Of a stretch of 64,000 bases of DNA, positions 1,857 through 4,377 are shown piece after piece. The position numbers and the translations under genes were made by a program. The notes under the pieces were generated by a model. It had not been told where the DNA came from. It ran no database searches and was given only the letters and a program-made list of their open reading frames with translations. Source of the stretch: Candidatus Iainarchaeum sp. (GTDB lineage: Archaea; Iainarchaeota; Iainarchaeia; Iainarchaeales; GCA-2688035); assembly GCA_017610175.1 (NCBI GenBank), contig JAFCCO010000001.1:1-64000 (forward strand), written 5' to 3'. Position 1 is the first letter of the stretch; every line of letters begins with the position of its first letter.

Positions 1857-2201
1857 TTATTCTAGCGCAAGACTTGTTTTTAGGGCTTCGTCTACTTTTT
1901 TCATTGTTTTTGGCTTTAGCATTCCAAGTTTCTTAATTACTCTGTGTTCGATGGAAACTGTTCTGAGTTGGTTCAACAGAATTGTGCTGTCTTTTGGTAG
2001 GTTGCTTTCCCCTTTTTGTGCCTGAACCGTGAACGGGTATTCTTTTTCGCTTTTTGAAGTTATTGCTGCAACGATTGTTGTGGGGCTTACTGTGTTGCCC
2101 AAATCGTTTTGGATAATTAGGCAAGGCCTGGTTTTTCCCTGTTCTGAGCCTTTTACTGGTTCCAGGGTGGCGAGGACAATATCGCCTCTTTTAATAATCA
2201 T
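1857..2201 (-). CDS. MazF/PemK-family toxin
   Basis: MIIKRGDIVLATLEPVKGSEQGKTRPCLIIQND is typical of PemK/MazF. Confidence 0.88.
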   Translation of the reverse strand: MIIKRGDIVLATLEPVKGSEQGKTRPCLIIQNDLGNTVSPTTIVAAITSKSEKEYPFTVQAQKGESNLPKDSTILLNQLRTVSIEHRVIKKLGMLKPKTMKKVDEALKTSLALE

Positions 2202-2457
2202 CTAGCATCTTGTCCGCTTCTTTGCTTGCATATTTCCATCCTTCTTCAATTTTAAGGTCTTGCTTTGCCATCTTCTTATACCCCTCAATCAGTAATTTTT
2301 CTTTTTCCTTTTTACTCAAAGCTTTCTCAACCACAATCTTACCGTCCTCTATCTTGACAATAACTTTGTCTTTTTTCTTCAGGTTTTCTTTTTCCCTGAT
2401 GATTTTGGGGATAGTTATTTGGCCTCTTTCACCGACAACGGTAACGCTTTCATACAT
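2191..2457 (-). CDS. AbrB/MazE-like antitoxin
   Basis: SpoVT-AbrB N-terminus (VTVVGERGQITIPKIIRE); overlaps the toxin start. Confidence 0.8.
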   Translation of the reverse strand: MYESVTVVGERGQITIPKIIREKENLKKKDKVIVKIEDGKIVVEKALSKKEKEKLLIEGYKKMAKQDLKIEEGWKYASKEADKMLDDY

Positions 2458-2617
2458 ACAATCACCAACGTAATTTTTACATATTAATTCATATCCAAAA
2501 CATATTTAAGGCTTGTGGTTATCATCACTGCTTGGGTGAAACTGTGGCTAAAGGGATTTCCTCTTGTATCTGAACCTTTATTTGAAAAACTCAAACTGAA
2601 CCACCTTCATTTAGGCT

Positions 2618-2728
2618 GAATTTTTTCTGGAAACGATTCGTGCACTGGAGGCATTAAATTTTTAGGCGCAGCCGACCCGGAGGGAAAAAGTTTAAGCCGA
2701 TCAGTGCACAAGTTGTAAGAAAAAATTC
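2618..2728. ncRNA. Candidate structured RNA (nested inverted repeats), strand undetermined
   Basis: Perfect 11-bp outer stem GAATTTTTTCT/AGAAAAAATTC, perfect 8-bp GTGCACTG/CAGTGCAC, then GGC/GCC and TTAAATTTTT/AAAAAGTTTAA nested in an intergenic gap. Confidence 0.5.
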
Positions 2729-2749: not shown

Positions 2750-3736
2750 TCAAATCCAAGTAATGTCAACTTGGTCAGTGCGTTGTTTTGGTTTCACTTC
2801 ACTGTCTTCTAATTTCATTCTAATTCCGTTTTTATATTCTACCAATCCCAACCACGCTGGCAACAAACCATTATCAACACAAGCTGGCACAGGCGGAACA
2901 AACATTTCAGCCCCGCGCTCTTTGCACATTGTGTCCATCATTTCCCTCAAGGCCTTGCTTGCGGCAACCCCTCCTGTCAAAACAAGCTCGTTTTTTTCGG
3001 TGTGCGCAAGGGCCCTCTCGGTCACCTCTGTAAGCATTGCAAATGCGTTGTGCATCAGGCTGTATGCGAGGTCGATTGCATCCTCTTTTCCAATTTTTTG
3101 CTCGGCAGCGGTTTGCAGTCCTGAGAAAACCAAATCCATTCCCTTAACGGAGTAGGGAAGCTTTACAAGGTTCTTTTTTTTAAAATACATTTCGTCAATT
3201 TTTGGCCCTGCAGGAAAGCCAAGCCCTATTGCCCTTCCAAAACTGTCAAGCAGGTTTCCAATTCCCACATCGAGAGTTTCACCGTAAACCCTGTACCTGC
3301 CTGTTTCATACCCAATAATCTGCGTGTTTGCTCCGCTTGCATAGCACACTATTGGGTCCTTTGCCCCTGTAAGGGCCTTTGCAATTTCAATGTGTGCAAT
3401 GCAGTGGTTTACGCCAAGCAATTGCTTGTTGTGGGCTAGTGCAAGGCTGCGCGCAACCGCTGCGCCCACCTGCAAACAGGCCCCAAGCCCCGGGCCCTGC
3501 GAGTATGAAACAAGGCCAATGTCTTTTGGCTTTAGGCCTGCCGCTTCAAGCGCCCTCTTCAAAACCGCTGGCGCATTTTCAACGTGTGAGTCTGCCGCCT
3601 CCCTTGGCTTAATGCCGCCCTCCTGGGTGGTGAACGCCTTCTTTTCGTTGGCGAGGATATTGCACTCGCCCTTCTCGTTGGAAACAATTCCCACTCCAAA
3701 GGTGTGTGCTGTTGATTCGATTCCAAGGCAGATCAT
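2750..3736 (-). CDS. kae1: tRNA N6-threonylcarbamoyladenosine protein Kae1/TsaD
   Basis: MICLGIESTAHTFGVGIV..., HxxxH motif HCIAHIE; ATGA overlap with the upstream gene. Confidence 0.93.
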   Translation of the reverse strand: MICLGIESTAHTFGVGIVSNEKGECNILANEKKAFTTQEGGIKPREAADSHVENAPAVLKRALEAAGLKPKDIGLVSYSQGPGLGACLQVGAAVARSLALAHNKQLLGVNHCIAHIEIAKALTGAKDPIVCYASGANTQIIGYETGRYRVYGETLDVGIGNLLDSFGRAIGLGFPAGPKIDEMYFKKKNLVKLPYSVKGMDLVFSGLQTAAEQKIGKEDAIDLAYSLMHNAFAMLTEVTERALAHTEKNELVLTGGVAASKALREMMDTMCKERGAEMFVPPVPACVDNGLLPAWLGLVEYKNGIRMKLEDSEVKPKQRTDQVDITWI

Positions 3737-4377
3737 TTGGCCACTTCGCATTTGTTTCCTGTTTCAATTTCTTTTCCTAAAACCTTTTCAAGCTCTTGCT
3801 TTGGAATTTCTCCCCCGCGCAAAAGGATGTTGCTGAATGTGCAGTATATTGTGCTCGCCGGCTTTTTATCCATGTTGCCCGCATCCACTATTAAGTTAAC
3901 CTTTTCTCCAAACACGCGAATTGCTTCCTCTGCCGAATAGATTGCGGGTTTTCCATGAATGTTTGCGCTGGTCGCGGTTATTGCGTGCCCAAAGGAGCGG
4001 GCAAGTTTTGATGCAAACTCGTTGCTTGAAATTCTGAATGCAATTCCGTTTGTTGTGATGTTTGCAGGAACAATTTCCTTATGCCTGCTGATTAGTGTAA
4101 GCGGGCCTGGCATGAATTTGTGCACCAGTTCCCTTGAGCGCTCGTTCAGGTATGCAACCTGTTCCGCCTGCTTTTCTCCGGCAACGATTACGCTGATTGG
4201 TTTGTCGTGCGGCTGTTCCTTTGCTTTGTGGACCTTTTCAACGGCCTCTTCGTTCAAAGCGTCTGCTCCAACACCATAGCTTGTTTCGGTTGGGTAGATT
4301 ATTATTCCCCCATTTTTTAGCACGCGGACTGCGTCGCTTATTGCATTTTCATCCTCAACTTTCACAATTTTTGCCAC
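3733..4377 (-). CDS. Sua5/YciO/YrdC family L-threonylcarbamoyladenylate synthase
   Basis: GGIIIYPTETSYGVGADAL, ITATSANIHGKPAI. Confidence 0.9.
   Translation of the reverse strand: MAKIVKVEDENAISDAVRVLKNGGIIIYPTETSYGVGADALNEEAVEKVHKAKEQPHDKPISVIVAGEKQAEQVAYLNERSRELVHKFMPGPLTLISRHKEIVPANITTNGIAFRISSNEFASKLARSFGHAITATSANIHGKPAIYSAEEAIRVFGEKVNLIVDAGNMDKKPASTIYCTFSNILLRGGEIPKQELEKVLGKEIETGNKCEVAK

Follow-up and report, generated by a model that had tools for sequence, protein, structure and literature searches.

The palindrome at the end of kae1

The window, by which we mean the whole 64,000-nucleotide stretch of DNA analyzed here, comes from an archaeal genome of 1.24 Mb. On its minus strand, a kae1 gene is followed by a long palindrome, the remnant of a small open reading frame (mini-ORF) and a mazE/PemK toxin-antitoxin pair (Table 1). 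The distance from the kae1 stop codon to the mazE start is 292 bp, in agreement with the 290-bp gap in which the original prediction had placed a nested structure.

Table 1. Features of the kae1 locus in the window
Feature	Position	Strand	Basis
Inner palindrome, type-1 stem with double-hairpin apex, 111 nt	2618-2728	none	z-scores, covariance-model match, family covariation
Left half of near-invariant core, GGAGGCATTAAA	2647-2658	+	alignment of 92 copies
Right half of near-invariant core, TTTAAGCCGA	2691-2700	+	family alignment
Apical mini-hairpin GGC-GCA-GCC	2665-2673	+	RNA fold
Apical mini-hairpin CCC-GGA-GGG	2676-2684	+	RNA fold
Outer arm, mini-ORF side; altered Shine-Dalgarno GAAGGTGG on minus	2601-2617	none	sequence
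Outer arm, kae1 side; TGA is the kae1 stop (2750-2752); TGAAAAACCTCACC on minus	2729-2752	none	sequence
kae1 (TsaD family), last residues QRTDQVDITWI	2750-3751	-	Pfam TsaD, E 5.6e-75; C-terminal comparison
Mini-ORF remnant, 36 codons, TTG start, (M)SFSNKGSDTRGNPFSHSF...	~2484-2594	-	family comparison
MazE-like antitoxin	2191-2457	-	Pfam
PemK/MazF toxin	1857-2201	-	Pfam

RNA folding of positions 2600 to 2745 gave -54.9 kcal/mol for the plus strand (z-score -6.23) and -45.9 kcal/mol for the minus strand (z-score -5.36), and on each strand 0 of 200 shuffled sequences folded as well. The predicted plus-strand fold includes the 11-bp stem GAATTTTTTCT/AGAAAAAATTC, the stem GTGCACTG/CAGTGCAC, a purine internal loop beside GGC/GCC, an A/T stem and the two apical mini-hairpins. 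The nested pairings of the original prediction are thus present in this fold, and the z-scores, together with the family covariation described below, bear out its view that so much pairing exceeds chance and that the element has been selected. Pairing also extends past the borders of the inner palindrome, with approximately 2602-2610 facing 2732-2742. The structure had further been described as having no coding explanation; the structure is real, but the gap also holds the minus-strand mini-ORF remnant and is therefore not free of coding sequence.

An Rfam scan of the window found no family at the palindrome, the sole match being a tRNA elsewhere in the window. The best Rfam match at the palindrome site scored 18.6 bits, below the gathering threshold of 110, and a tRNA/tmRNA search found none at this site. 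The suggestion of a k-turn-like motif bound by L7Ae is not supported by the other copies, most of which have a symmetric GGA/GAG 3x3 loop without a 3-nt bulge. By inspection, the loop of the window copy and of other copies with the same stem type is GGA/GA(U or AC), also lacking the 3-nt bulge. An archaeal bulge-helix-bulge intron was set aside, since on inspection the consensus structure has no two opposite 3-nt bulges 4 bp apart.

Copies of the palindrome and their covariation

We found a second copy of the palindrome by DNA search, 89 kb from the window copy on the same contig, and a third by its core pattern on another contig. The core pattern, GGNGGCATTAAA...TTTAAGCC, occurs at 37 places in 17 of the 18 genomes of the window's family, and its reversed control gave 0 matches in the same 18 genomes. 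A stricter pattern found 50 loci in a collection of 85,462 species genomes, most of them named Diapherotrites or ainarchaeum. One match in Bacillota (L088) was excluded as chance, its fold being unrelated to that of the other copies. A covariance model of 21 other copies, with the window excluded, matched the window copy at 59 bits (E 1.9e-11). Across the phylum Diapherotrites, covariance-model matches lie at about 90 places in 36 of 92 genomes, the window included, and many near-identical copies stand at different cassettes of one genome. The palindrome family has hitherto had no name and is known so far only from Diapherotrites. Several element-bearing records (JAFCCG, JAFCBY, JAFCCH and DAOWAC) bear the labels Chloroflexi, Falkowbacteria, Thaumarchaeota and Chloroflexota; they correspond to genomes that group with Diapherotrites and fall into the window's family in the taxonomy applied, and the labels are probably wrong. 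A viral origin was rejected, since the core pattern had no match in the IMG/VR contigs.

When 21 copies were aligned with the window left out, 96.4% of the cells paired and 8 pairs had changed on both sides, a kind of count that kinship among the copies inflates. The covariation score of this alignment was 0.209 vs 0.074 for shuffled alignments, and 0 of 500 shuffles reached it. An enlarged alignment, which was fitted to the covariance model and includes 4 reverse-strand or duplicate rows, gave double changes in 30 of 36 pairs (18.6 when shuffled) and in 389 cells (86.6 when shuffled). Its score was 0.358 vs 0.107 for shuffled alignments, with 0 of 500 shuffles as high, and the signal was lost when partner columns were slid by 1 to 3. 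Because of the model fitting and the 4 additional rows, the 21-copy alignment is the cleaner test. Compensatory covariation in relatives, which the original prediction had itself named as its test, was therefore found.

The middle stem occurs in two types, GTGCGTT/AACGCAC and GCGAATTTT/AAAATTCG. Since these types misalign, RNAalifold recovered only part of the structure when run on 51 copies aligned with MAFFT; this consensus was superseded by the type-2 alignment and the covariance model. The ATTAAA/TTTAA pairs are invariant across the 92 aligned copies, single cells excepted, and the unpaired GGA/GAG loop and a bulged A are also conserved among copies. The apex is variable: most copies have a single extension, while a double hairpin is found in the window copy, L038, L054, L058, L092 and others. 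Apex sequences are common to a lineage across different sites. In the alignments, the ends of the palindrome are GAATTTTTTC/GAAAAAATTC and CACCTCC/GGAGGTG. In many copies GAG-TTTTT terminates both arms, in opposite directions.

Cassettes and their insertion sites

Read in the sense of the window's minus strand, the copies show the order palindrome, Shine-Dalgarno sequence (SD), conserved mini-ORF and cargo. A mini-ORF with an SD stands behind the palindrome in 79 of 87 copies; it is about 30 to 50 codons long and falls into two main sequence families. The start of the next ORF lies within 8 nt of the mini-ORF stop, mostly as ATGA, in 67 of 75 copies vs 190 of 600 control positions (32%). Among the copies with a longer ORF behind, a single homology cluster holds this ORF in 67 of 81, and Pfam found LAGLIDADG domains in the cluster members tested (L003, L142, L053 and L097). 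The same palindrome and mini-ORF also precede an antirestriction protein resembling ArdC (L092; L210 has a homologue) and DNA methyltransferases (L198 and L202). In non-endonuclease cassettes (L092, L197, L198, L200, L202, L204 and L210), the mini-ORF is followed by a conserved protein of about 66 residues (MKVKEITVSVSQKxNTGNYSSKGFGLSATAEL...), which matched no Pfam family; the mini-ORF products matched none in Pfam or PHROGs. Among the cassettes examined, the only recombinase found was the LAGLIDADG enzyme. Some copies also carry a second small ORF whose product, by eye, appears to span the membrane.

The cassettes adjoin or enter tRNA genes, kae1, metG and a lonB with a putative split intein. 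Among the 18 kae1 loci of the window's family, only one (G009) has a cassette at the window's kae1 site, with an intact LAGLIDADG ORF of 392 residues; the other kae1 loci with readable downstream sequence have none. In G009, kae1 ends in KERTDQVNITWI followed by TGA at the cassette border, and PKQRTDDVEVNWL with a stop codon stands just after the endonuclease stop. The latter sequence matches the kae1 end of G001 (MPKQRTDDIEVNWL and stop), which is an empty site. Insertion of the cassette therefore took place inside the end of kae1, for which the cassette brings a replacement.

The kae1 gene of the window has the cassette-borne type of end, as in G009, and positions 2729-2752, which recur as border sequence in G009, are probably the upstream border of a cassette. 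Searched with tblastn, the window held no trace of the G009 endonuclease. The SD is altered and the outer arm partly decayed. In the mini-ORF remnant, the N-terminal half matches the first mini-ORF family (family a; the G009 homologue reads MSFSNKVSDERGNPFSYGFSLAEIAKNLKDEWVL), while the C-terminal half has been replaced and coupling to the downstream ORF is lost. A 15-bp stretch of the remnant, GTTTCACCCAAGCAG, resembles the native kae1 end of G009, GTTTTACCCAAACAG, and is suggestive of a leftover of the native end; it also resembles mini-ORF sequence. From these sequence features, we take the window copy to be an endonuclease-less relic of a cassette inserted at the kae1 end. The mazE/PemK pair lies directly behind the relic, in the position of the relatives' endonuclease, and may be cargo, a later insertion or an old neighbour. 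The palindrome at this site is of type 1 in the window and type 2 in G009, and palindromes are therefore exchangeable there.

The closest described elements are the mORFs of fungal mitochondria, in which an endonuclease ORF, usually LAGLIDADG, sits in a conserved gene (atp6 of Allomyces; atp6, atp9, cox2 and nad3 of Glomus), brings a substitute C-terminal end and leaves the native end downstream (PMC3630166). The G009 cassette has the same anatomy when its sequence is set against the empty G001 site, with a substitute end and the native end past the endonuclease. An endonuclease ORF of a homing family is likewise present in L003, L142, L053 and L097 and absent from the window copy. The logic of the mobile element, endonuclease plus replacement gene end, was already known from fungal mitochondria. 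The cassettes differ from mORFs in being archaeal, in including a palindromic leader that covaries and a mini-ORF coupled to the cargo, in often neighbouring tRNA genes and in having other types of cargo. The literature searched, which was incomplete, contained no report of gene-end-replacing endonuclease elements in archaea; nor did it describe a conserved palindromic leader linked to cassettes of this kind, or the present palindrome in Diapherotrites.

At lonB, seven loci (L040, L045, L065, L077, L098, L196 and L211) have the N-terminal part of LonB, with an intein-like end, immediately ahead of the palindrome. In L045, L065 and L211, the C-terminal part of LonB lies downstream of the endonuclease and opens with the intein C-terminal motif GHVYNVTTETGNLFVEDILVHN, followed by SGGLGT. 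The arrangement suggests a natural split intein; the Pfam match to the intein N-domain is weak (E 0.0036). The palindrome is of type 1 in L040 and L045 and of type 2 in L065. Fractured genes are known in which an endonuclease lies between the halves of a split intein, and the lonB cassette lies likewise between the N-domain and C-domain halves. It differs in that its endonuclease is LAGLIDADG and that a palindrome and a mini-ORF are included. Odd gene structures of Diapherotrites, among them the split lonB and the second 3' end of a kae1, are accounted for by the cassettes.

In many copies the end of the endonuclease ORF abuts a tRNA gene or lies within one (Thr, Ile, Val, Leu, Pro or Arg). 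A tRNA lies downstream in 31 of the 67 copies with 2 kb of downstream sequence vs upstream in 9 of 70. Where cassettes stand at tRNA sites, a blastn search of their upstream ends for fragments of tRNA gave mostly chance-level matches. In one cassette, L097 (AR10), a tRNA 5' half, GGGCCTATGGTCTACCGGTATGA, stands at the upstream border and by eye resembles the downstream tRNA-Val, where a full tRNA-Val-like gene with an intron-like insert is seen; the half tRNA is possibly a target duplication, and is no more than suggestive of a substitute and a native end at tRNA sites. In L044 and L053, the end of the endonuclease overlaps, by eye, the start of metG in another frame, and a reading from ...GKPHL to GHAYEK... 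requires a one-base shift.

Role of the palindrome in the cassette

The meaning of the structure thus differs from that first suggested: it is the end module of a mobile selfish cassette rather than a k-turn RNA, and the window copy is a relic. We are highly confident that the palindrome forms the leader at the upstream end of selfish cassettes that make up one family and whose usual cargo is a LAGLIDADG homing endonuclease. In 77 of 85 copies the outer pairing takes in the SD, and the two arms of a copy score 24.15 with each other vs 18.10 (sd 0.42, maximum 19.13) when arms are dealt among copies. Burial of the SD by the outer arms and the stop-start overlap with the cargo form the layout of a translational lock.

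In the mechanism that we propose, the active form would be the cassette-sense transcript, in which the outer arms pair the SD of the mini-ORF with an anti-SD-like arm. With the SD buried, ribosomes would seldom start at the mini-ORF, and since the cargo would be translationally coupled to the mini-ORF, the output of nuclease would stay low. The conserved inner core may be the site to which a ligand or protein binds and by which the lock is held or opened. As an explanation of the element overall, we consider this leader model the best one and give it an even chance; the throttling mechanism, in which a cis leader holds down the mini-ORF and its coupled cargo, is plausible but tentative. The idea that SD burial and stop-start overlap quiet a selfish nuclease in a small genome is testable, and about 90 natural variants make the palindrome suited to compensatory-mutation tests.

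SD-sequestering leaders with a coupled leader ORF form a general class, and the palindrome resembles them in that a small ORF, coupled to the main gene, has its SD hidden in the outer stem. Both the paired SD (77 of 85 copies) and the coupled cargo (67 of 75) were found, while the excess of G-U over A-C wobbles that marks selection on one strand was not. In the window copy, the SD arm has decayed and the ORF is uncoupled. The palindrome differs from the class in its long, near-invariant core, which is common to unrelated cargo, and the regulation proposed here is read from the layout.

Wobbles of any kind are very few in the palindrome helices, and they numbered 30 G-U vs 28 A-C in the model pairs and 44 G-U vs 42 A-C in individual folds. 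In the tRNA acceptor stems of the same loci, used as a control, there were 25 G-U vs 3 A-C. Because an RNA acting as a single strand should show a bias, its absence counts against an RNA-only role. The arms thus seem to be held to Watson-Crick pairing on both strands, as would fit a hairpin or cruciform in DNA, a structure that transcripts of both strands form, or repeated copying of one arm from the other. Two further observations count against the leader model. In 41 of 51 copies, the strand that folds more stably is the one opposite the cassette sense. Of the copies in the first set, only about one-third have a same-strand gene directly before them, so cassette-sense transcription across the palindrome is not certain everywhere.

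A role at the DNA level would explain the missing bias and the few wobbles, which differ clearly from those of the tRNA stems. Here the palindrome, folded into a hairpin or cruciform where the cassette begins upstream, would aid mobility as the substrate of a hairpin- or junction-cleaving enzyme or through pairing of ends in repair, and the pairing would be retained since the DNA folds or since one arm is copied from the other in replication. The palindrome does stand at the cassette border and reach it, and its type varies at one site, at kae1 (window and G009) as at lonB. However, such a role does not require the SD burial and stop-start coupling, the retained GGA/GAG loop and bulged A would both be erased by arm copying, and the LAGLIDADG enzyme is the only recombinase in the cassettes examined. 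This explanation is a strong rival to the leader model, although in our view the less likely of the two.

The ends of the arms suggest another role, that of a two-way insulator or terminator which halts transcription from both sides and so shields host gene and cassette from one another. GAG-TTTTT at both arm ends in opposite directions fits this role; a need to fold on both strands would account for the missing wobble bias, and the palindrome lies directly behind host stop codons at the window, lonB and other sites. On the other hand, the T-run is weak (TTTT or less) in cassettes with the second mini-ORF family (family b), the near-invariant core is left unexplained, and some copies have divergent genes on either side (rpiA in the case of L003). 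We regard a terminator as improbable. A stand-alone structured RNA made from the plus strand, opposite to the cassette, and binding protein through its tandem G-A loop would suit the purine GGA/GAG loop and the more stable fold of that strand in 41 of 51 copies, but it is highly improbable and was set aside mainly for the missing wobble bias toward that strand and the constant link of most copies to a cassette, and it also matches no Rfam family and occurs as many near-identical copies per genome at different cassettes instead of one gene.

Integron attC sites carry R''/R' boxes (RYYYAAC/GTTRRRY) at their ends and have an associated IntI. The likeness to them lies in an imperfect palindrome with conserved pairing, asymmetric unpaired bases, a variable apex and exchangeable cargo nearby, whereas no R-box or L-box was seen here by eye, the cargo examined includes no integrase, and the core is near-invariant. 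HEARO and omega RNAs are RNA motifs upstream of nuclease genes, and they too are conserved structures beside nuclease genes of mobile elements; the palindrome differs in having neither an Rfam match nor a strand bias. LAGLIDADG enzymes are not known to be RNA-guided. The double-hairpin elements of Allomyces mitochondrial DNA are small mobile hairpin elements. The window apex is also a double hairpin, but the palindrome is attached to a cassette, has a near-invariant core and gives no sign of moving alone.

We tentatively suggest that selfish cargo of unrelated kinds, from homing endonucleases and restriction-modification-type DNA methyltransferases to antirestriction of the ArdC type and perhaps MazEF, could stand under a single palindromic control module that defines a new class of archaeal mobile cassette. 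Such a cassette would insert into conserved genes, re-supply the displaced gene end and lock its cargo through an SD-burying hairpin with a specifically recognized core.

A second conserved motif, ACCGGAAACCC-CTCTTTCCAAG-GC-TTTAAA, was also seen before the body of the endonuclease, for example in L003, L048 and L070. This motif carries a small hairpin that appears to covary.
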